DNA from: Actinomycetota bacterium
GTDB lineage: Bacteria; Actinomycetota; Thermoleophilia; BMS3ABIN01
Direction: 5' to 3'
DNA: 40,699 bases
Assembly: GCA_023489275.1 (NCBI GenBank)
Contig: JAMDDD010000030.1
Span: forward strand, 1-40,699
Below the pieces are notes generated by a model, which worked only from the letters and a program-made list of their open reading frames with translations, ran no database searches and was not told the origin of the DNA. Position 1 is the stretch's first letter; every line of letters begins with the position of its first letter. The position numbers were made by a program, and so were the translations under genes. This document shows, in pieces, positions 17,559 through 36,598 of the stretch.

Positions 17559-17635
17559 GGCGGTGTAGCTCAGCTGGTCAGAGCAGCGGAATCATAATCC
17601 GCGTGTCGTAGGTTCGAGTCCTACCACCGCTACCA
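17559..17635 (+). tRNA. tRNA-Met (anticodon CAT), island boundary
   Basis: Acceptor GGCGGTG/CACCGCT (first pair G-T), D-arm AGCTGGTCAGAGC, anticodon stem GCGGA/TCCGC with loop ATCATAA (anticodon CAT), T-arm GTAGG-TTCGAGT-CCTAC, discriminator A and encoded CCA. CAT anticodons can be elongator Met or Ile2 (lysidine); features here fit elongator Met but I cannot exclude Ile2. The 3' end adjoins the tail of a serine recombinase, so this gene is probably the attachment site of an island. Confidence 0.93.
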
Positions 17636-17933
17636 AATCATTCTTACTCGAACCTGGGTTCAGTAAGAGGCCGAAATGATTAGTGTAATGAAGCTCACTG
17701 ATCTTTTTGTCTTTTATGAGGATTTTCTTGAAAAATGCCTGATTGAACTTCCGTCTGATGTCAGGCCGGGATTTCAGGTAAGCCTTGTGGCACTTTGAGG
17801 CCATTTCCAGTGCGAGATTAATTGTTTCCTTGATCCCGTCGTCGCCATCTTTCAAAGTTTCCAGACGCCCCTGACAGTCCTCGATTTCTCCGCTAATCCT
17901 GTCTTGCTCTTTCTTTAGCACTGGCGGATTCAA
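17592..17933 (-). pseudogene. large serine recombinase C-terminal remnant
   Basis: The 113-residue frame begins NPPVLKKEQDRISGEIEDCQ (coiled coil) and continues with NLALEMASKCHKAYLKSRPD, then RRKFNQAFFKKILI. This is the C-terminal part of large serine recombinases of phage and integrative elements, after the zinc-ribbon/coiled-coil region. The last residues (VGLEPTTRGL) are simply the antisense of the tRNA-Met 3' end, so the reading frame runs into the tRNA. The N-terminal catalytic domain (about 350-400 residues) is gone: the frame stops at the IS30-type inverted repeat at 17930, and no continuation is found on the far side of that element. It indicates a former integration at tRNA-Met. Confidence 0.75.
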
Positions 17934-18996
17934 CTCCCAAGTGCAACACGAGGTCGTTTTAAAGAGGTAAGCTGCGGCAACGGCAGCACTTCTAAACGAC
18001 CAAGTAAAGGAGCACTATGGGATGTTACGCGCAGCTTACCCCAGATGAACGATATCAGATTCGCGGTCTTTTGAAAGCGGGATACAGCCTGAGCGAGCTA
18101 GCCATGGAAATGGGCAGGCACAAGTCGACGATCAGCCGGGAAATCGGCAGGAATAGCGGCCAGAGGGGATATCGACCTGCTCAGGCCCAGCGTCTGGCTG
18201 ATACCCGCCGCCGGGAGGCCGTGACCAGGAGAATCACCGATGAACACTGGCAGATTGTCGAGCGGTTCATCAGATTCGATCTGAGTCCAGAGCAGGCTTC
18301 CGGCAGGCTCTGCCGGGAACAGGGAATCAAAATCAGCCCCGAGTGGATCTACCAGTATATCTACGCTGACAAGGCGGCCGGCGGCGATCTTCACACTCAC
18401 CTGCGCGGTCAGAAACCCTACCGCAAGCGCTACGGAGGCGGCCGGGAGCGCCGGGGTCAGCTCAAAGACCGGGTTTCCATCGACAAGCGGCCGGCGGTGG
18501 TAGAGCGCCGGAGCCGCCTGGGCGACTGGGAGGGCGATACCATCATCGGCGGAAACCGCAAGGGGGCGCTCGTCTCGCTGGTGGAACGCAAATCGAGCTT
18601 TACCCTGATCGGCAAGCTTGCCGGGAAGACGGCGGCCGAGACCCGGGATGCCGCCACCGGCCTGCTGGAGCCGATCAAGGAGATGGTGCATACCATCACG
18701 CTGGACAACGGCAAAGAGTTCGCTTGCCATGGCGACATCGCCAAGAGCCTTAAGGCCGACATCTGCTTCGCCCATCCCTACTCCTCCTGGGAGCGGGGCT
18801 TAAACGAGAATACTAACGGTCTCATCCGCCAGTACTTCCCCAAGAAACACGACTTCACCACCATCACCTTGACGAAGAGATCGCCGAGGCTACGCACCGG
18901 CTCAATCACCGCCCCAGGAAAAAGCTTTGATTCTAAACCCCGTATGAAGTAGTCTTCAAAACATCAACCCTGTTAACTGTTGCACTTCAAAGTTGA
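17930..18996 (+). mobile_element. IS30-family insertion sequence
   Basis: Bounded by inverted repeats TCAACTCCCAAGTGCAACA (17930-17948) and TGTTGCACTTCAAAGTTGA (18978-18996), matching at 16 of 19 positions when one is reversed. A 2-bp direct repeat AT flanks both sides, compatible with an IS30-type target duplication. The internal gene is an IS30 transposase with frameshifts. The right repeat overlaps the ancestral transposase stop codon. Confidence 0.82.
18017..18996 (+). pseudogene. IS30-type transposase with 3' frameshifts
   Basis: An IS30-family DDE transposase. The N-terminal helix-turn-helix reads YSLSELAMEMGRHKSTISRE; the catalytic core has LGDWEGDTI (Asp170/Asp174), HTITLDNGKEF (Asp230) and NENTNGLIRQYFPK (Glu264). 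ATG 18017 has AAAGGAG upstream. After TTIT (about nt 18868) the conserved tail DEEIAEATHRLNHRPR appears one frame over, and PYEVVFKTSTLLTVALQS to the stop at 18994-18996 appears after another shift. At least two indels therefore disrupt the last 40 residues. In the original frame translation ends at 18952 with a non-family tail. The catalytic residues are intact, so residual activity cannot be excluded. Confidence 0.85.
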
Positions 18997-19010
18997 ATGC
19001 AGGAGAAGAA

Positions 19011-19240: not shown

Positions 19241-20155
19241 ATGGCCATTTTTAAAATTGAAAATCAACATTTAGTTCCAATCAAGGAAATGAAGTTTGAT
19301 CTTGAAAAAGATATTCAAAAAACAACTGAGGAAAATCTTGAAGTCGTTTTTGGTTACGCACTTGTAAGATCAGAATTCACTCTTAATAATCTGCGCATTG
19401 ATACCCTAGCATACGATTCAGAAACCCAGGCCTTCGTAATCATTGAATATAAAAAAGATCGAAATTTCAGCGTAATTGATCAGGGCTATTCCTATCTTGC
19501 TTTATTGTTAAATAATAAGGCTGATTTCATTTTAGAGTACAACGCGCGAATGAATGACGGACTCAAGCGGGACGATATTGATTGGTCACAGTCCCGTGTT
19601 CTTTTTATCTCCCCAAATTTTACAACTCACCAAAAAGGCGCGATTGATTTTAAAGATCTACCAATTGAATTGTGGGAAGTGAAAGCATATGAAAATGATA
19701 CGCTGCGGTATAACCAACTGAAAGCTGCCGCCTCAAGTGAGTCAATAAAAACTGTAACGAAAGATAAGACGATCAAAACAGTGAGTCGCGAAGTTAGGGA
19801 ATATACTTTAGAGGATCATTTCAAAACAAGTTGGCAGGCTTCGAGGGAATTATTCGATGAATTAAGAGAGAAAGTGCTCGACTTTGATTCAAATACCAAA
19901 GAAAAAATTTTAAAGCACTGCATAGCGTATGAAATAAATAATCGAAATTTTGCTGAGATTGTTGCTCAAAAATCGGGGCTGAAAATCTATTTAGATGATG
20001 AGATACAAGCTTTTAAGAAGACAAAGATGTCTTTGAAAGATTGTTCCAAAGTCGGTCATTGGGCGACTGGAAATACCGTATTTCATTTTAGCCAACCGGA
20101 GAATATAGACGATGCGGTTTTTTTAATAAAACAGGTATATGAGAAATACAGTTAA
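19241..20155 (+). CDS. DUF5655-type protein with PD-(D/E)XK-like nuclease domain
   Basis: A 304-residue protein of the DUF5655 group. The N-terminal 170 residues resemble a restriction-endonuclease-like fold: an RIDTLAYD strand (Asp54) and FVIIEYKKDRNFSVIDQGYS with Glu69-x-Lys71, a D-x14-ExK pattern, then IDWSQSRVLFISPNF and DLPIELWEVKAY. The C-terminal 110 residues (from about REVREYTLEDHF) are the DUF5655 domain itself. It probably cuts or binds DNA or RNA, but activity is unproved. The gene is clearly AT-rich compared with the flanking chromosome, starts at ATG 19241, and is followed 57 bases later by the HEPN-like DUF3644 gene. Such proteins often occur in defence or accessory islands. 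Confidence 0.8.
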   Translation: MAIFKIENQHLVPIKEMKFDLEKDIQKTTEENLEVVFGYALVRSEFTLNNLRIDTLAYDSETQAFVIIEYKKDRNFSVIDQGYSYLALLLNNKADFILEYNARMNDGLKRDDIDWSQSRVLFISPNFTTHQKGAIDFKDLPIELWEVKAYENDTLRYNQLKAAASSESIKTVTKDKTIKTVSREVREYTLEDHFKTSWQASRELFDELREKVLDFDSNTKEKILKHCIAYEINNRNFAEIVAQKSGLKIYLDDEIQAFKKTKMSLKDCSKVGHWATGNTVFHFSQPENIDDAVFLIKQVYEKYS

Positions 20156-20212: not shown

Positions 20213-21301
20213 ATGAAACGAGAGGCAAAGCTTCTTCTTAACAAATCAATAGACTCCTTGGCCTTGAGCGTGGAGCATTTTAATCGCGTCGAGGAACGTG
20301 GCAGGATCCCTTCCGTTCTAATTTTTCTGGATCATTCGTTTGAAATGCTATTGAAAGCATGCATTGTTGAACGGGGAGGAAAAATTAGGGAACAAAGAGC
20401 GAGTGAAACAATCGGGTTTGATACCTGCGTTAGAAGGGCTCTCGATGATGGGGCTATAAAATTTATCAGTGAGGAACAGGCTATTACGTTGCAAACAATA
20501 AACGGTCTTAGGGATGCAGCTCAGCATTACCTGATCGAGATTACAGAAGAGCAACTATATATCCATGCCCAGTCTGGTGTCACACTTTTCGGCGACATAA
20601 TGAAAAAGGTATTTGATAATGACTTGCGTAGTGTATTGCCGCCACGTGTTCTCCCAGTCTCGACGATGGCTCCCAGAGATATAACTTCCTTGTTCAATGA
20701 TGAGATTAAAGAAATTAAGAAGTTGTTAGAACCCGGAAAACGGAAGAGAACCGAGGCATATGCAAGAATGCGGCCATTTGCAATACTAGACGCGACTATC
20801 CAGGGTTCAAAGAATCAGCCAAGCAACAACGTATTGAAGAAAAAGGGAGAAGGCTTACTAGGTGGTAAAACTTGGCAGGAAATATTCCCGGGCATTGCTT
20901 CAATTGAACTGAAACCTGAATCTGATGGCACTGCCATAGGTTTAAGAATCACAAAGAAAGAAGGAATCCCTATTAGTATAGTTCCGGAGGGAACACCAGG
21001 GGCATCAGTGGTCGCACTAAAAAGAGTAAACGAGCTCGATTTTTACAACCTGGGTCACAAGCAATTGGCAGATCGTGTCGGTTTAACTCCACCAAAGGCT
21101 ACTGCCGTCATTTGGTATGGAAAAATCCAAGATGACCCGGATTTCTTCAAGGAACTGAAGATTGGCAAATCACCATTTAAGCGATATTCTCAAAAAGCAA
21201 TTGAGGCCATGGAGAAAATAATTGAAAAGGAAAGCATAGAAACCATCTGGAAGCAATACAGAGAGCATCAGAAAACTTTCAAGAAGCTAAAATCTTCTTG
21301 A
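20213..21301 (+). CDS. DUF3644 (HEPN-like) protein
   Basis: A 362-residue protein of the DUF3644 family. The first 150 residues are all-helical and contain RDAAQHYL, an R-x4-H motif (Arg100, His105) of the HEPN superfamily, whose members are often metal-independent RNases in toxin and abortive-infection systems. Preceding helices carry IFLDHSFEMLLKACIVE, matching the usual HEPN first helices. The C-terminal half (about 200-360) has GKTWQEIFPGIASIEL and a region NELDFYNLGHKQLADRVGLT that resembles a DNA-binding or specificity domain. Start ATG 20213. It lies downstream of the DUF5655 nuclease gene in the same direction and ends 50 bases before the first of four spaced repeats. A defence or toxin role is inferred from the fold and the neighbourhood. 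Confidence 0.75.
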   Translation: MKREAKLLLNKSIDSLALSVEHFNRVEERGRIPSVLIFLDHSFEMLLKACIVERGGKIREQRASETIGFDTCVRRALDDGAIKFISEEQAITLQTINGLRDAAQHYLIEITEEQLYIHAQSGVTLFGDIMKKVFDNDLRSVLPPRVLPVSTMAPRDITSLFNDEIKEIKKLLEPGKRKRTEAYARMRPFAILDATIQGSKNQPSNNVLKKKGEGLLGGKTWQEIFPGIASIELKPESDGTAIGLRITKKEGIPISIVPEGTPGASVVALKRVNELDFYNLGHKQLADRVGLTPPKATAVIWYGKIQDDPDFFKELKIGKSPFKRYSQKAIEAMEKIIEKESIETIWKQYREHQKTFKKLKSS

Positions 21302-21350: not shown

Positions 21351-21456
21351 GTTCGAATAACGTAGCACCTGGTCTACCATCACCCGATGCCTCGCTTTAG
21401 GCTTGGTTAAGCCAAATTATTTCCTCAATATCGTAAACCCCTGATAGGACTCGAAC
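21351..21456 (+). repeat. spaced repeat A (cassette-like repeat)
   Basis: First of four related ~90-107-bp repeats. It runs from GTTCGAATAACG to GGACTCGAAC; the ends are complementary (GTTCGAAT/ACTCGAAC, 7 of 8). An internal hairpin GGCTT-GGTT-AAGCC is present. Bases 21361-21418 are identical over 58 bp to 22874-22931 in repeat B. It marks the left side of the higBA module. Confidence 0.85.
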
Positions 21457-21478
21457 ATCGAGAAATTTTCCTTGTTTG

Positions 21479-21497
21479 TAGCATGACTACCGTGCTA
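21479..21497 (+). promoter_or_regulatory. operator-like inverted repeat upstream of higB
   Basis: TAGCATG-ACTAC-CGTGCTA is an inverted repeat with 7-bp arms (6 of 7 matching) that ends 10 bases before the GTG start of the toxin gene. The position suits autorepression by the HigA-type antitoxin. Confidence 0.5.
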
Positions 21498-21507
21498 TCA
21501 TGGCATT

Positions 21508-21801
21508 GTGATCCAGTCTTTCAAAAACAGGGGTACAGAGGATATCTTCAATGGCAGGAACACAAAAGAGGCCCGGAAGCTCTGTTCCCGGCTGCTCTGG
21601 AAAATCGCCGCGAGAAAGCTTGATCAGCTGGATTCGGTTCGGATTCTTCAAGAGTTAAAGATACCGCCTGGCAACAAGCTTGAAGCTTTGACGAAGGACC
21701 GAAAGGGTCAGCATAGTATTCACGTTAACGACCAGTATCGTATCTGTTTCAGGTGGACCGAATCAGGGCCGGCAGATGTTGAAGTCACAGATTATCACTG
21801 A
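21508..21801 (+). CDS. higB: HigB/RelE-family toxin
   Basis: A 97-residue member of the HigB (plasmid maintenance killer) branch of the RelE superfamily, ribosome-dependent mRNA interferases. Features are the opening IQSFKNRGTEDIFNG, the helix ARKLCSRLLWKIAARKLDQL, NKLEALTKDRKGQHSIHVND and the final strands QYRICFRW...VEVTDYH, where conserved basic and aromatic residues and the terminal DYH match active HigB proteins. Start GTG 21508. The toxin-before-antitoxin order and the 12-base gap to the HigA gene are typical of higBA. It sits in the first repeat-bounded module. No sign of inactivation. Confidence 0.9.
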   Translation: MIQSFKNRGTEDIFNGRNTKEARKLCSRLLWKIAARKLDQLDSVRILQELKIPPGNKLEALTKDRKGQHSIHVNDQYRICFRWTESGPADVEVTDYH

Positions 21802-21813
21802 AAGGACAGGATA

Positions 21814-22122
21814 ATGGTAAGGATTCCCACACATAGAGAGCCTACACATCCCGGTGAAATGCTACTGGAGGAGTTCCTCGTGCCCATGGGCATCAGCCAA
21901 AGGGATCTGGCCACAGCCATCCATGTTCCGTATCAGCGTGTGAACGAGATAGTCAACAAGCGCCGGGGGGTCACTCCAAGTACCGCTCTGCGTCTCGCCA
22001 GGTTCTTTGGCATGACTGAGGACTTCTGGATGTATCTCCAGCTTCGCTGGGATCTTTTCAAAGCCAGGCAAAACGAGGCTAAAGAGCTAGGGTCAATTCG
22101 TCCCCTCCGAACAGGAACGTAA
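21814..22122 (+). CDS. higA: HigA-family antitoxin (XRE HTH)
   Basis: A 102-residue antitoxin with the HigA signature REPTHPGEMLLEEFLVPMGI followed by the helix-turn-helix SQRDLATAIHVPYQRVNEIV, then NKRRGVTPSTALRLARFFGM and TEDFWMYLQLRWDLF. It neutralises the upstream HigB and should repress the operon by binding the palindrome at 21479. ATG 21814, 12 bases after the toxin stop. The next gene starts 9 bases after its stop, so a three-gene operon is likely. Confidence 0.92.
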   Translation: MVRIPTHREPTHPGEMLLEEFLVPMGISQRDLATAIHVPYQRVNEIVNKRRGVTPSTALRLARFFGMTEDFWMYLQLRWDLFKARQNEAKELGSIRPLRTGT

Positions 22123-22131
22123 ATAGACGAA

Positions 22132-22779
22132 ATGGCTGATTTTGTAATCGAAAATAGTTCTGTTCAAGCCGATCTGAACAAATGGGACGGCAGTGAAACA
22201 ACTGCCTGTGATCGCTTATTTCTTGAAGAGTTTTCGGCCGGTTTGGTTAGTGAAAAGACTTTACGACAGTTTTCAGCGACCAATACGGTACAAAAACGCA
22301 CCGGTGGCTACAGCATTGGCAGGACATTCTGGGGTGGAATTTTTCATTGGGCGACACGAATTGATATCTTTGTGAAAGAAGACGTCGCCATGTATAGAAT
22401 GGAATATCAACAAAGCGGCAATCCAGACATCGCATATAAGATCTTAGATGAGCTAGCAAATATGGAGGGTGCTGGGCCGAGTGGGAAGAAACGGAAATTA
22501 GGTACCGTTTCCGCTTCCAAACTAGCATTTTTTCTTTGCCCAGAAATGCCATTTTTCATATATGATTCCGTTGTCGGCAAGGTCTTTGGCCGGAAATCTG
22601 CTCCAAGGCCGAATGAATATCCAATGTGGTGCGCTGCGCTAGAAAAGCTTTTACCGGATTCTCATTCTTTCAGAGAACAGGTACCCGAGAAGCGACGTCC
22701 AGAATTTGCTAATCGCCTGGACTGGCTTGCTCGTCGCTCTCTCGATTTGGCGCTTTATGCGAACGGCGAGAAAATTTAA
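22132..22779 (+). CDS. hypothetical protein in higBA module
   Basis: A 215-residue soluble protein of no family I can name. The N-terminal half is mixed (FLEEFSAGLVSEKTLRQFSA; RTFWGGIFHWATRIDIFVKE). A central segment SASKLAFFLCPEMPFFIYDS followed by VVGKVFG resembles the helical 'P-x-F-x-IYDS-xV' element seen in several glycosylase-like and accessory proteins. The C terminus is helical and basic (RPEFANRLDWLARRSLDLAL). It begins 9 bases after higA, with no terminator between, and ends 84 bases before repeat B, so it belongs to the same repeat-bounded unit. It could modulate the toxin pair or be unrelated cargo. Confidence 0.6.
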   Translation: MADFVIENSSVQADLNKWDGSETTACDRLFLEEFSAGLVSEKTLRQFSATNTVQKRTGGYSIGRTFWGGIFHWATRIDIFVKEDVAMYRMEYQQSGNPDIAYKILDELANMEGAGPSGKKRKLGTVSASKLAFFLCPEMPFFIYDSVVGKVFGRKSAPRPNEYPMWCAALEKLLPDSHSFREQVPEKRRPEFANRLDWLARRSLDLALYANGEKI

Positions 22780-22863
22780 AAGTTTACTCCACTAACGATT
22801 TATTCAGAATCATTGCATACTCGGCTTTATCTGCCTCAGAAGACAAATTTCATCCTTGTAGGG

Positions 22864-22970
22864 GTTCGAATACCGTAGCACCTGGTCTACCATCACCCGA
22901 TGCCTCGCTTTAGGCTTGGTTAAGCCAAATTCTGTTCTCCGAAATCGTTACCCCCTGGCGGGACTCGAAC
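22864..22970 (+). repeat. spaced repeat B (cassette-like repeat)
   Basis: Second copy, from GTTCGAATACCGTAG to CTGGCGGGACTCGAAC. The end arms pair at about 12 of 15 positions, so the 107 bases could form one long imperfect hairpin. It shares a perfect 58-bp block (22874-22931) with repeat A. The start lies 1513 bases after the start of repeat A. Confidence 0.85.
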
Positions 22971-23014
22971 TTTCTGATTAAATCAAGGAATTCTGGGGAA
23001 AATGATATTGTTAT

Positions 23015-23047
23015 AATCATTATTAATCGATATGATTGATAGTGATT
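23015..23047 (+). promoter_or_regulatory. 33-bp operator palindrome upstream of CopG/ParE operon
   Basis: Half-sites AATCATTATTAATC and GATTGATAGTGATT are inverted copies (consensus AATCAyTATyAATC, 12 of 14 matching) around a 5-base centre. The palindrome overlaps a TATAAT (23012-23017) and lies 16 bases before the antitoxin ATG, as expected for autorepression by the ribbon-helix-helix protein. Confidence 0.65.
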
Positions 23048-23063
23048 AAAAAGGAGGTTTGCC

Positions 23064-23324
23064 ATGAAAACCAAGGTGTTAACTGCTCATGTGCCGCTGC
23101 CGCTGGCAGAAAAGGTCGATCAGGTAGCTGCCCGTCTGGAACGTTCACGAGGATGGGTTGTGAAACAAGCCCTTTCTGCCTGGGTTGAACAGGAAGAAGA
23201 GCGAAGCAGACTAACGCGAGAGGCAATGGCCGACGTTGATGCCGGCCGTGTAATCGACCATCAGGCTGTGCAGGCCTGGGCTGACAGTCTGGACACTGAA
23301 AAGCCGCTTAAGCCACCGCGCTGA
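23064..23324 (+). CDS. CopG-type ribbon-helix-helix antitoxin
   Basis: An 86-residue protein with an N-terminal ribbon-helix-helix: strand KVLTAHVPLPLAEKVDQVAA, then a helix with ARLERSRGWVVKQALSAWVE, followed by a charged helical tail that should wrap the toxin. ATG 23064 has an excellent AAAAAGGAGG upstream. It overlaps the toxin gene by one base (TGATG at 23322-23326). It is expected to bind the 33-bp palindrome just upstream and repress the pair. Confidence 0.88.
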   Translation: MKTKVLTAHVPLPLAEKVDQVAARLERSRGWVVKQALSAWVEQEEERSRLTREAMADVDAGRVIDHQAVQAWADSLDTEKPLKPPR

Positions 23325-23599
23325 TGGAGCTCAAATGGACGAGTAAGGCCCTCTCCGACTTGGTAAGGCTTTACGGGTACCTGGCTCTGGTGGATATTCA
23401 GGCAGCAGCAAAGGCGGTACAGGCCCTATCGGCGGCGCCTCAAGGTTTGCTGACACATCCGCGCATTGGTGAGAAATTGGAAGAGTGCGAGCCGCGTGAA
23501 GTTCGCCGAATTCTTGTGGGCCGCTATGAAATGCGATATGAGATTCAGGCCTCGACAATTTACGTGCTGAGGCTTTGGCATACTCGGGAAACTCGATAA
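23324..23599 (+). CDS. ParE/RelE-family toxin
   Basis: A 91-residue toxin of the RelE/ParE superfamily: MELKWTSKALSDLVRLYGYL at the N terminus, AAKAVQALSAAPQGLLTHPRIGEKL, then VRRILVGRYEMRYEIQ and the final IYVLRLWHTRE. The R-LVG-YEMRYE and LR-WH-R pattern is that of ParE-type toxins (gyrase poisons) rather than mRNA-cleaving RelE. It is translated by TGATG coupling with the CopG antitoxin. Intact. Confidence 0.9.
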   Translation: MELKWTSKALSDLVRLYGYLALVDIQAAAKAVQALSAAPQGLLTHPRIGEKLEECEPREVRRILVGRYEMRYEIQASTIYVLRLWHTRETR

Positions 23600-23750
23600 T
23601 AGGTTGTCAACCAAATAGAACTCAAGAAGATCGATAAACTCGCGAAAACGTGCTCTCGGCTGATTTGTATATTACCCGCTACAAAATATTGAATATTTTC
23701 CGCTAAGAAATATTCACGGATCGCTAGGTTTAATTCCAATGCAACACAAC

Positions 23751-24332
23751 CTAGGAAAGCTTGTAAAGCTCCTTCTCGGTACCGATTACAAATATTTTCT
23801 GGCCCCGGGCAACGTTGCACACGAAGGTTTTTTTCGTTTTTAACTGAATTTTCCACTCGCTGGGACTGAAAATTGAATAGTTTATTTCCCTCCCCAGACG
23901 TTTTTCTGCTCTCATGATGGCTTCGTGAACAGCGTCAACTGAAACGTCGCCGATAACCATGACATCTATATCAGAATGCGCATTTTCCATATTATTGGCA
24001 ACAGATCCATAAATGAATGCTGATCTCACATCATGGTTTTTAACGAAGACCCTTCTGAGCTCATCACCAATGCCTACGGTCTTGAAGATTATGCTTTTGA
24101 TTTCCGGGTACAGAATGAAATCCTTGTTGACCCAGTAAAAGCGGATGTTTCCCTCTTTCTGGCTATATAGTAGACCTGCGGTTTCCAAACGCTTCAACTC
24201 ATTCTGGATCGACTGCTTGCTCGCACTCAGAATGTCTATCAGCTGACGGTAATAGAAGCGTCGGCCAGGATGAGTAACGAACCAGGTGATTAGCTCTACG
24301 CGAGACTTGGATGTAATTAGAGTCGATAGCAC
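23751..24332 (-). CDS. MNT-type nucleotidyltransferase with winged-helix domain
   Basis: A 193-residue protein. Residues 1-70 are a winged helix (VELITWFVTHPGRRFYYRQL; SKQSIQNELKRLETAGLLY) of the ArsR/MarR-like kind. Residues about 95-190 are a minimal nucleotidyltransferase domain with AFIYGSVANNMENAHSDIDV: GS at 109-110 and Asp121/Asp123 as metal ligands. Such proteins are MNT antitoxins that AMPylate a HEPN toxin, or regulators. The start is GTG 24332 with ATAGGA upstream. It is the only minus-strand gene of its module, and no HEPN partner lies beside it; the nearest HEPN-like gene is the DUF3644 at 20213. Function is inferred. Confidence 0.83.
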   Translation of the reverse strand: MLSTLITSKSRVELITWFVTHPGRRFYYRQLIDILSASKQSIQNELKRLETAGLLYSQKEGNIRFYWVNKDFILYPEIKSIIFKTVGIGDELRRVFVKNHDVRSAFIYGSVANNMENAHSDIDVMVIGDVSVDAVHEAIMRAEKRLGREINYSIFSPSEWKIQLKTKKTFVCNVARGQKIFVIGTEKELYKLS

Positions 24333-24454
24333 ATATTCCTATAAATTTAGGGCAAAAGACCTAAAGATATAGTAACACCATTTTCGATTCTCTTGCTGGC
24401 CTAATTATCACAGATGCCGTTTTAGCTCAAAAGGTAAATCTCGTCCTTGTAGTT

Positions 24455-24551
24455 TTTCGAATGACGCAGCAAGTGGTCTACCAAGCTATAATTTCACGTT
24501 TTTAGCGTAACAAAGCCAAATCTTGGCAGATAAAACACCCAGGCCTCGAAC
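24455..24551 (+). repeat. spaced repeat C (divergent copy)
   Basis: Third, more diverged copy: TTTCGAATGACGCAGCA, then GTGGTCTACCA, AAGCCAAAT and a terminal CCTCGAAC. The sequence ahead (TAAATCTCGTCCTTGTAG) matches that ahead of repeats B and D. It starts 1591 bases after repeat B. Confidence 0.7.
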
Positions 24552-24612
24552 TTTTCCGATGATGATCGGAGGCTGGTCTTGCTTCGCGGCGATCGACAGA
24601 CATAATAACCAT

Positions 24613-24828
24613 ATGGGGGAACCAGCCTTCAACATCGACGATCTTTCGCAGGCGGAGCGGCTCACGCTTCTTGAGCAGCTTTGGGATAGTCTTGAGCCGG
24701 GAAGCGTGCCGTTTACGGATGCCCAAAGGGTTGAACTCGACCATCGTCTGGATGAGATCGATCATGGAGACGTGGATGGCATTCCCTGGGAAGAGGTGGT
24801 CCGCCAGATTCGTGGGCGGCAGCGTTGA
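24613..24828 (+). CDS. addiction-module component (antitoxin, TIGR02574-like), orphan
   Basis: A 71-residue protein of the putative addiction-module-component family: DDLSQAERLTLLEQLWDSLE, then TDAQRVELDHRLDEIDHGDV and the signature IPWEEVVRQIR. In this family the gene is normally followed at once by a RelE-type toxin; here no toxin frame follows, and 42 bases later a Fic-protein tail begins. ATG 24613 matches the family start, although the frame is open upstream to 24523. It is probably a stranded antitoxin left after deletion. Confidence 0.72.
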   Translation: MGEPAFNIDDLSQAERLTLLEQLWDSLEPGSVPFTDAQRVELDHRLDEIDHGDVDGIPWEEVVRQIRGRQR

Positions 24829-24870
24829 CCTCTCCTATCTTCCGGCCTACCGCAGCAGCGGACGTGGAAG

Positions 24871-25092
24871 ATGACCATTCATCCCTATTTAGATGGCAAC
24901 GGCAGGGCAGGAAGGCTGCTGATGAATTATCTTTTACTTTCCGCCGGATATCCCTGGGTAACCATTAAGAATGAACAACGAGGCGAGTACTTCGAAGCGT
25001 TGGCGCAGGCACAACTGGATGAAGGCATTCAGCCATTTGGGGAATTTATCCTGGCGATATTGAAAGAGGCGAGCAGGGATAATGAAAAATAA
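24871..25092 (+). pseudogene. Fic-domain protein, C-terminal fragment
   Basis: Begins directly in the catalytic loop of a Fic AMPylase: MTIHPYLDGNGRAGRLLMNY, that is the HPFx(D/E)GNGR motif with His at residue 4, followed by LLLSAGYPWVTIKNEQRGEY and a helical end. The upstream 150-250 residues of the Fic fold are missing, and the preceding DNA belongs to the antitoxin gene. At 73 residues it cannot form the domain. It is a deletion remnant fused to the antitoxin module. Confidence 0.7.
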
Positions 25093-25202
25093 TCCACAAG
25101 GCTCAGGGCAACTAGTACTTTATTGTACTGATCGGTACGTACCATGGCATGGAAGGACGGGGGCGTGAGCCCCCCTCCTACCCGTTGCGGCATCATCGCT
25201 GT
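25093..25202 (+). other. gap with tandem palindromes
   Basis: Between the Fic fragment and the desulforedoxin end lie AGTAC-TTTATT-GTACT (25114-25129), the perfect palindrome GGTACGTACC (25134-25143), and a GC-rich hairpin GGGGGC-GTGA-GCCCCC (25159-25174). The last could stop either convergent transcript but has no T run. No gene is seen. Confidence 0.5.
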
Positions 25203-25325
25203 TTATTTCTCCACCCGCGTCATTGCTTGACCGCAGCAGTGAATTTCAGGGTTGCCGCCGGCCTCGATGACCTCGACGACGTTCCCGCAAAGCTCACATC
25301 GGAATGTTTCTCCCAAGACCGCCAT
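25203..25325 (-). CDS. desulforedoxin-like protein
   Basis: A 40-residue protein: AVLGETFRCELCGNVVEVIE, then GGNPEIHCCGQAM. The CxxC plus CC arrangement (C10, C13, C29, C30 by position) is the Fe(Cys)4 centre of desulforedoxin and the N-terminal domain of desulfoferrodoxin. It serves electron transfer or superoxide/oxygen defence in anaerobes. ATG 25325 is chosen because AAAGGAGGA lies seven bases upstream; the open frame to 25418 precedes any ribosome-binding site. It is divergent from the HxlR regulator, with which it shares a promoter region full of AGTGCTA boxes. Confidence 0.88.
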   Translation of the reverse strand: MAVLGETFRCELCGNVVEVIEAGGNPEIHCCGQAMTRVEK

Positions 25326-25383
25326 GTTTTTCCTCCTTTCCTGTCTCAGCGCGATCAAAATCGCAGAGCCAACAATCTTTATG

Positions 25384-25457
25384 AGTGCTATAATATATAA
25401 TGCACTAAAAAATTGCAAGTGCTAGATTAAAGATAATACAATAATAGTTATAGCACT
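25384..25457 (+). promoter_or_regulatory. AGTGCTA operator cluster between desulforedoxin and hxlR-type gene
   Basis: Four half-sites: AGTGC (25384) facing GCACT (25402-25406), and AGTGCTA (25418-25424) facing TAGCACT (25451-25457). Both pairs are inverted repeats in an AT-rich divergent promoter region with several TATAAT-like boxes (for example TATAAT at 25389). Likely binding sites of the HxlR-family regulator. Confidence 0.55.
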
Positions 25458-25502
25458 TTAGCATCAGGGTTTTTTCCGTTAGAATTGAGTTGGTGAATTG
25501 CC

Positions 25503-25859
25503 ATGGCTGATAAAAGCAATGAAATATTTTGCCCGGTAACGGCGACGACGTCCCTCCTCGGCCAAAAGTGGACGCTTGAGATAATTCGCTCGCTGATCGA
25601 CGGCAAGAAACGTTTCAATGAGCTTTCCCAGGCTCTGGGAGGGCTCAACGCGCGCACCCTCAGTACACGGCTGAAATCTTTGGAAGCAGAGGACATCGTT
25701 GAACGGAGGACACTTTCCTCCATTCCTCCGTGGGTTGAATACGAACTGACTGAGAAGGGCCGAGCCCTTAACGAAGTGATTGAAAGTATGGCGACATGGG
25801 GACGGCGCTGGATTCAGCCGCCGAAAAAACAGAAGCAGCGGGCCAAAACAAAGGCGTGA
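25503..25859 (+). CDS. HxlR-family transcriptional regulator
   Basis: A 118-residue winged-helix regulator of the HxlR/YodB family: FCPVTATTSLLGQKWTLEII, SLIDGKKRFNELSQALGGLN, then ARTLSTRLKSLEAEDIVERR and WVEYELTEKGRAL. Cys10 in the N-terminal C-P motif corresponds to the redox-sensing cysteine of YodB and HypR, which respond to quinones, diamide or hypochlorite. It is divergent from desulforedoxin and probably controls it through the AGTGCTA boxes. The C-terminal tail is very basic (KKQKQRAKTKA). Confidence 0.9.
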   Translation: MADKSNEIFCPVTATTSLLGQKWTLEIIRSLIDGKKRFNELSQALGGLNARTLSTRLKSLEAEDIVERRTLSSIPPWVEYELTEKGRALNEVIESMATWGRRWIQPPKKQKQRAKTKA

Positions 25860-25948
25860 ACAGAAGCTTTCAGGGTGCTAAATTTACGCGGATGCCTTTT
25901 TTGAAAAGACCTTGAGCCTTTTAAAAGGTAAATCTTGTCCTTGAAGCT

Positions 25949-26037
25949 GTTCAAATAGCACAATCAGTGGTCTACCAATATCCGACTTCTCAGATTCGGC
26001 TTAGGTAAGTTAAAAAATTTTTCTCGAAGGTTTGAAC
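25949..26037 (+). repeat. spaced repeat D (most diverged copy)
   Basis: Fourth copy: GTTCAAATAGCACAATCA, GTGGTCTACCA, CGGCTT-AGGT-AAG hairpin remnant, ending near TTTGAAC. It starts 1494 bases after repeat C and marks the right edge of the accessory region. The upstream AAAGGTAAATCTTGTCCTTG matches repeat C. Confidence 0.65.
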
Positions 26038-26111
26038 ACCGATAAGCCGCTTATGCTTCCGAGCTGATCGGGAGGCCACCCTGCATGGAAAGCTATCTTC
26101 AGGTGCCTGGG

Positions 26112-36400: not shown

Positions 36401-36499
36401 TCAAGCAGCAAATTAAATAGCCAAAGACAGCTGGCGCTCGCATGAAGCCAAGTGAGCTTAAAGGGCCGGGAGGCCCGCCCGCCGAGGTGACAATATCGG

Positions 36500-36548
36500 G
36501 AACAGGGCTCCTGTTCTTTTATGTCTACCTCTGCGGAGGTAGTTTTTT
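36500..36548 (+). terminator. tandem terminator-like hairpins in the L10 leader
   Basis: First hairpin GAACAGG-GCT-CCTGTTC (36500-36516) followed by TTTT; second CTACCTC-TGCG-GAGGTAG (36525-36542) followed by TTTTTT. The region 36420-36598 is the place of the L10(L12) leader that controls rplJ-rplL, so these are likely attenuators or a partial terminator rather than a full stop of the operon. Confidence 0.75.
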
Positions 36549-36598
36549 AATGATCAAAATCTTTGCCTTTGAACTTTAAACTGGCCGGGAGGTGAGAA

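Follow-up and report, generated by a model that had tools for sequence, protein, structure and literature searches.

A cassette array behind a tRNA-Met gene, probably anchored by a family of large serine recombinases that integrates at tRNA and tmRNA 3′ ends

Behind one of its tRNA genes, a bacterial genome stacks small defence and toxin–antitoxin cassettes; sequence comparison points to a large serine recombinase (LSR) that would dock them there by reading the loop of the tRNA that varies least. We consider it highly probable that this array, found in the 40,699-nucleotide stretch of DNA analysed here in full (the window), is a tRNA-anchored LSR cassette array, made by an LSR family that integrates at the 3′ ends of tRNA and tmRNA genes. 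We favour this reading because of the overlap of recombinase genes with tRNAs, the geometry of the attachment (att) sites, the copies of the core, the repeat right halves that stand behind tRNAs, a block order that changes between genomes, and an empty site.

The anchor is tRNA-Met (anticodon CAT; 17559–17635, plus strand; ARAGORN and Rfam), the presumed attB half-site, whose T-loop, TTCGAGT, lies at 17613–17619 and whose end, CTACCA, lies at 17630–17635 (both plus strand). On the minus strand, an ORF of 113 codons (17592–17933), recognised by homology to its relatives, corresponds to the last ~110 residues of an LSR of ~520 residues. Its last ~14 codons lie antisense in tRNA-Met, within which it terminates (the tail, LVAVVGLEPTTRGL, is antisense tRNA-Met), bearing out the observation in an earlier note on this DNA that a recombinase tail runs into the tRNA 3′ end. 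That note spoke of a large serine recombinase, of which the window holds the C-terminal tail: the remnant matches residues ~409–517 of its relatives only, at 17921–17595, the N-terminal ~400 residues are absent, and the N-terminal part of the relatives had no significant match anywhere else in the window. The remnant ORF itself has no Pfam match. It is truncated by an adjoining IS30-type insertion sequence (17928–18998, plus strand) with 21-bp inverted ends (17928–17948 and 18978–18998) and a transposase ORF (18017–18952, plus strand; Pfam HTH_38 and a weak rve match). By eye, the usual C-terminal frame of this transposase is lost near 18860–18870, and the gene therefore looks like a pseudogene. 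The window's own recombinase is dead, which we count against the model. Calling the tRNA a former integration site suits the window's recombinase gene, but the genome holds further family members with open frames of 515–533 amino acids, and these might still act on the array.

The presumed attL (17610–17655, plus strand) consists of a tRNA T-loop half, the core CTACCA, and a recombinase-side half. The two halves, AGGTTCGAGT (17610–17619) and ACTCGAACCT (17646–17655), are exact, mirrored 10-mers, and the perfect 10-bp inverted repeat noted earlier is present as described. The same geometry recurs at other tRNAs. The arrangement of antisense tail and mirrored T-loop exceeds chance, because it is found again at many tRNAs in many genomes and because a mirrored T-loop-like motif stands 16–17 nt from the tRNA CCA end at those recombinase ends in which such a motif was recognised.

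Relatives of the 113-residue remnant occur in 22 of the 60 genomes searched, including 16 of the 19 genomes of the same bacterial family, the window's own genome included. The earliest loci examined carried several kinds of antisense tRNA at the recombinase ends. One scan of a named genome collection gave 80 loci, mostly in Actinomycetota MAGs labelled Thermoleophilia, Gaiellales, or Actinomycetes; 7 of them stop before the C-terminus, 56 are at least 40% identical, and 17 are less than 40% identical. A tRNA called by ARAGORN on the opposite strand is overlapped by 42/56 of the closer relatives compared to 2/17 of the more distant ones, and the tRNAs overlapped by the 42 are Met, Val, Pro, Glu, Lys, Ile, Ala, Gly, and Leu. 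Inspected by eye, the other 14 comprise four that terminate in a tmRNA 3′ end (L095, L111, L120, and L134), four that terminate in a partial tRNA end (L089, L105, L125, and L158), one with a T-loop plus CCA but no tRNA (L098), and five without either signature (L104, L116, L132, L135, and L153). In genome G010, an intact relative at the same tRNA-Met matches Resolvase (PF00239), Recombinase (PF07508), and Zn_ribbon_recom (PF13408), all above cut-offs. That intact relatives terminate antisense in tRNA and tmRNA 3′ ends supports the earlier proposal that a serine recombinase used the tRNA-Met 3′ end, a proposal that proves largely correct but wider in reach.

At L040 (G013:C8) and L051 (G016:C6), the recombinase end faces a T-loop plus CCA at tRNA spacing where no tRNA gene was found; these are possible secondary sites or tRNA relics. 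A 40%-identical recombinase at L137 in Glycomyces harbinensis (NZ_FNAD01000017.1) ends antisense in tRNA-Glu, and this named strain could become a laboratory model. A phage or plasmid source was considered and rejected; the best identity among the matches listed was <30% in both collections.

The spacing of these sites follows a rule described for LSRs: in the available text of the source, the zinc-domain motif of attB (bp 11–19) stands 5 bp closer to the core than that of attP (bp 16–24) (PMC3783163). In the tRNAs, the T-loop TTCRANY always lies 20 nt ahead of CCA, and, counted from the first T of the TTC in this loop, CCA ends at 23 nt, whereas the distal P sites share TTC[AG][AG]ATA and reach CCA at 28 nt; the zinc-domain-like motif is thus 5 nt nearer the core in the tRNA sites than in the distal P sites. 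On the recombinase side, 17 nt separate the mirrored motif from the complement of CCA, or 16 nt in one group. Using a motif that carries no core information, we found CCA at the exact offset (25) in 22/78 matches on the predicted strand compared to 1/77 on the other strand. Taking the centre of P and P′, we infer a crossover near tRNA position 71–72; the T-loop would then coincide in position with the attB motif, and the distal TTC motif with that of attP. The importance that the earlier note gave to the T-loop-like inverted repeat fits this placement, in which the T-loop would serve as the zinc-domain motif of attB. Counted against the model, the P′ of recombinase-free cassettes only weakly resembles the P′ of recombinase genes.

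The core differs from target to target: it is CTACCA at Met loci, CCACCA at Val loci, CGACCA at Pro loci, CCGCCTCCACCA at the tmRNA locus L053, and GCTCTC at tRNA-Gly loci without an encoded CCA. We compared sites with their own and with other loci's targets, omitting 18 loci (repeats of contigs already counted, or unneeded) and adding five targets by hand where the script had missed them. At 61 sites the mean longest match was 5.13 to the locus's own target, a value reached in 0/2000 permutations, and 4.12 to the targets of other loci; for the opposite-strand control (33 sites), the corresponding values were 3.67 and 3.59, with 283/2000 permutations. The exact own-target match is 4–9 nt at most P sites that have CCA or a match of at least 5, and 12–13 nt at four. 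Exceptions, where the target is not fully matched and which we count against the model, are G002 (GGCCACCA), L125 site 7110 and L126 (CGCCCGCCA), and L131. A long duplication of the tRNA at the far end was rejected, because BLAST searches with the final 45 nt of every tRNA gave short matches only. The second copy of the tRNA 3′ end that the earlier note suggested looking for at the island's far boundary is no long duplication but the 6-nt core CTACCA behind a T-loop-like arm, present four times.

An accidental origin of the antisense tail and T-loop matches would hold that T-loops are alike everywhere and that the ORF happens to enter a tRNA. TTCGA is indeed short and common, and chance overlaps of ORFs with tRNAs do occur, but with 42/56 relatives at many different tRNAs, with strand and spacing specificity, and with the outcome of the permutation test, we give this explanation almost no credence.

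Those four copies of CTACCA lie in repeats A–D, which start at 21351, 22864, 24455, and 25949 (spacing 1513, 1591, and 1494 bases). Each repeat begins with the attP form of the zinc-domain motif (28 nt) and has the core CTACCA, which is the end of tRNA-Met; this combination supports the earlier suggestion that the repeats belong to the same system as the tRNA-Met site. Repeat A (21351–21456, plus strand, as are all four) comprises a P site at 21352–21379 ending in CTACCA, a stem-loop at 21400–21413, and an inverted T-arm mimic that runs to 21456. Repeat B (22864–22970) has its P site at 22865–22892, its stem-loop at 22913–22926, and its mimic to 22970, and repeat C (24455–24551) has its P site at 24456–24483. 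Repeat D (25949–26060; P site 25950–25977), the last recognisable site ahead of the chromosome, keeps the CTACCA core, and its right half has decayed. TTCGA, which the earlier note had placed at the ends of all four, occurs at both ends of A, B, and C, but in D the left end reads TTCAA and the right end has decayed. Identity is 89% between repeats A and B and 61–62% when C or D is compared with A. All full repeats found point the same way with respect to the anchor. One candidate (L036 11399), which looked unrelated once aligned, was dropped from the repeat model.

Between the insertion sequence and repeat A lie two cargo ORFs with Pfam matches, both on the plus strand: DUF5655 (19241–20155; PADLOC candidate defence PDC-S18) and DUF3644 (20213–21301; PDC-S19). 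Three cassettes follow on the plus strand, measured core to core, with genes identified by Pfam. Cassette 1 (21380–22892) holds HigB (21508–21801), a HigA-like gene (21814–22122), and an ORF (22132–22779). Cassette 2 (22893–24483) holds an RHH antitoxin (23064–23324), ParE (23324–23599), and, on the minus strand, a nucleotidyltransferase (23751–24332) that matches the PADLOC candidate family PDC-M05A. Cassette 3 (24484–25977) holds an addiction-module antitoxin (24523–24828) and an HxlR-type regulator (25503–25859), and the sequence between these two genes is non-coding or degenerate. No transfer genes were found among the island ORFs scanned in the window; the G010 element carries Replic_Relax (replication-relaxation), TraG/TraD-like coupling ATPase, MT-A70, and AbiJ-type genes.

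Small anchored arrays of this kind recall integrons and CALINs, which rely on a tyrosine integrase and on attC sites folded as single strands, with the pattern RYYYAAC...GTTRRRY. The repeats are of similar size (about 100 bp), have dyad symmetry, stand in one orientation, and separate toxin–antitoxin cassettes, all of which would suit attC sites of a classical integron (CALIN). Their ends read GTTCGA...TCGAAC, however, which is the reverse of the attC polarity, their core follows the tRNA, and no phage integrase domain was detected by Pfam among the island ORFs scanned. We rejected classical attC sites on polarity and core, and regard this explanation as very improbable. Like the array here, integrons and CALINs are anchored, consist of small cassettes with a single site apiece, are rich in toxin–antitoxin genes, and have a shuffled order; the array here differs in its LSR-type double-strand att geometry and in having a tRNA as anchor.

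In G018, G013, G005, and G002, the right half of the repeat (core, ~15 nt, stem-loop, and inverted T-arm-like end) stands directly behind an intact tRNA-Met, and in the window's own genome it also stands behind tRNA-Val(GAC) (G000 C41), in each case without the left half. A right half alone is the expected look of an inserted cassette next to the tRNA, and a full repeat would thus be the P-core-P′ junction of two successive cassettes. Cassette starts also contain a partial antisense copy of the T-arm of their own target (21421–21456 and 22935–22970 in the window, and 19 further starts): the match to the own target exceeded the mean of the others in 21/21 starts, with mean matches of 9.7 and 6.2, respectively. 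This mimic lies at +58 to +70 behind the core in 18/21 starts (in the other three, L039, L049, and a start in G018, the longest match is elsewhere), is not flanked by a core, and follows each locus's own tRNA. As a guess, it may be a recombinase binding site; the inverted mimic (about +66 to +70) plays no part in the model, and we count this against it.

The order of the blocks differs among the window, G013, G002, G005, and G010. The window has HigBA, then RHH-ParE with the nucleotidyltransferase, then the addiction antitoxin; G005 has antitoxin, nucleotidyltransferase, and HigBA. The block that stands directly behind tRNA-Met in G013 is RHH-ParE-nucleotidyltransferase, with repeat plus HigBA as the second block, whereas in G010 repeat plus HigBA is the last recognisable unit; this block is thus found at other array places in G010, G013, and G005. 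The third block of G013 is the first block of G002, and in both the likeness begins 7 bases past CCA.

RecA-type homologous recombination between the ~107-bp repeats, rather than the LSR, could reorder blocks too, and repeats A and B, at 89% identity, are long enough for some exchange. At most loci, however, the repeats are too different (61–62% for C and D against A), and the cassette directly behind a tRNA has only the core, not the left half, in common; we therefore judge this route unlikely. Plain tandem accretion is a stronger alternative, to which we give somewhat less than an even chance. It supposes that separate LSR elements inserted serially, lost their recombinases, and became cis-mobilizable relics with no ongoing exchange, and it ascribes the differing block order to independent insertions and deletions. 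The decay of repeat D and of the window recombinase fits this account, which is also the reading given, in the available text of its source, for the Dehalococcoides ssrA islands, 15/31 of which are without an integration module (PMC3146451). By contrast, three successive blocks of 1.5–1.6 kb, with one site each, permuted between genomes and with their sites in register, look more like singly moving units.

In relatives without the island, the empty site that the earlier note had called for is present. The ancestral neighbour of tRNA-Met is rpmG (L33; 33621–33782, plus strand), now 15,986 bp away. Among genomes with both flanks on one stretch (in the others a contig ends or tRNA-Met lies outside the stretch), tRNA-Met and rpmG are 44–137 bp apart in 5/5 outgroups (G022, G026, G042, G047, and G052) and 1.2–31.7 kb apart in 7/7 family members (the window, G002, G008, G009, G010, G013, and G018). 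A gene-order artefact was rejected, the same tRNA-Tyr-Thr-Met order being found in relatives. G002 has tRNA-Met, one block, a last P arm (18167–18194 of the oriented stretch), ~400 bp without a recognised gene, and then rpmG, and it looks like a complete small island. In the part of the 1.2-kb G008 insert that was read beside the tRNA, no site belonging to the system was seen. In the window, genes at 26.1–33.6 kb stand between repeat D and rpmG, and the right edge of the island is therefore only approximate. The segment 26112–31419 carries a CitMHS/ArsB-type permease (Pfam) and, by eye, phosphoketolase-like and acetate kinase-like ORFs, and may be an older, fixed insert; parts of 29.5–31.8 kb are kept beside rpmG in the nearest relative, G004. 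An L10 ribosomal leader (Rfam RF00557) at 36403–36558, upstream of rplJ, is ordinary. At L060 (G001:C53) and L064 (G017:C255), the insert just behind tRNA-Met starts differently, with the common sequence TTGACAGCCATTTTGACAGCCACCGG, and is possibly a tyrosine-integrase element at the same tRNA.

In the mechanism that we propose, the LSR family of these Actinomycetota would use the 3′ ends of tRNA and tmRNA genes as integration targets for elements, with the T-loop (TTCRANY) as the zinc-domain motif of the attB half-site and the acceptor end as core. The P arm of the element would carry the same motif 5 nt further out and then a copy of the last ~6 nt of the target tRNA, so that integration would restore the tRNA. 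The recombinase gene points toward the tRNA and borrows its last codons from the antisense strand. Small recombinase-free cassettes (core and stem-loop at the start, P arm at the end) would stack behind the tRNA, and repeats A–D would be the P-core-P′ junctions between them. The sequence evidence covers the tRNA overlap, geometry, core matching, single orientation, shuffled blocks, and empty site; joining by the recombinase, in cis or in trans, and continuing mobility of the cassettes are what we infer from it. A further reading, which we hold tentatively and place just short of an even chance, is integron-like gene capture run by an LSR: since the universal T-loop is what the enzyme would read, any tRNA gene could act as anchor, and recombinase-free cassettes, each marked by the final six bases of whichever tRNA it may enter, would be inserted, shuffled, and re-anchored in cis or in trans.

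Composite SCC/SCCmec islands are likewise arranged in tandem by LSRs behind a single gene's 3′ end and have repeated att sites, but their Ccr recombinases target a protein gene, rlmH, and the elements are large. The nearest known relative in layout, as far as the available text of its source goes, is the Dehalococcoides ssrA-specific genomic islands with the serine recombinase DsiB (PMC3146451), a text that also mentions SCC/SCCmec. There, the LSR gene is adjacent to the target and, on the opposite strand, its 3′ end overlaps attL, as the recombinase 3′ end overlaps the target RNA gene here in 42/56, insertion is at the 3′ part of a tRNA-like gene, and many units of the tandem arrays are without a recombinase. 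Those islands have one target (tmRNA), insertion within the T-loop, a 20-bp direct repeat, and a two-recombinase module (PMC3146451), whereas here the targets are many tRNAs plus tmRNA, the shared core at the CCA end is mostly 5–9 nt, the site has only one recombinase gene, and the cassettes are small; a far-side direct repeat of ~20 bp of the RNA gene 3′ end was not found here. Serine recombinases of Mycobacterium AICEs (tRNA-Leu) and phage phiRSM1 (tRNA-Ser) also use a tRNA gene, but these are reported as rare single cases, and the part of the source available describes no T-loop rule or cassette arrays (PMC3218068). That actinobacterial survey, in the same part, calls serine recombinase use of tRNA rare and gives eight Mycobacterium elements at tRNA-Leu, plus phiRSM1 (PMC3218068).

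Serine integrases have been described as not known to target tRNA genes (PMC4383910), those of mycobacteriophages as not integrating into tRNA genes (PMC9262239), and the word tRNA is absent from the main text of a large LSR survey (PMC10083194). In openly licensed literature, represented mostly by abstracts, we found no account of cassette arrays associated with an LSR family that reads T-loops. Our comparisons suggest that the recombinase family here uses tRNA genes as a rule, with the T-loop as zinc-domain motif and the CCA end as core. If confirmed, this would account for the ability of a single enzyme family to reach almost all tRNA genes without damage to them; it would predict, for each tRNA, an attP/attB pair that could serve as an integration tool; and it would add a second route, based on serine recombinases, by which cassette arrays come to collect defence and toxin–antitoxin genes.
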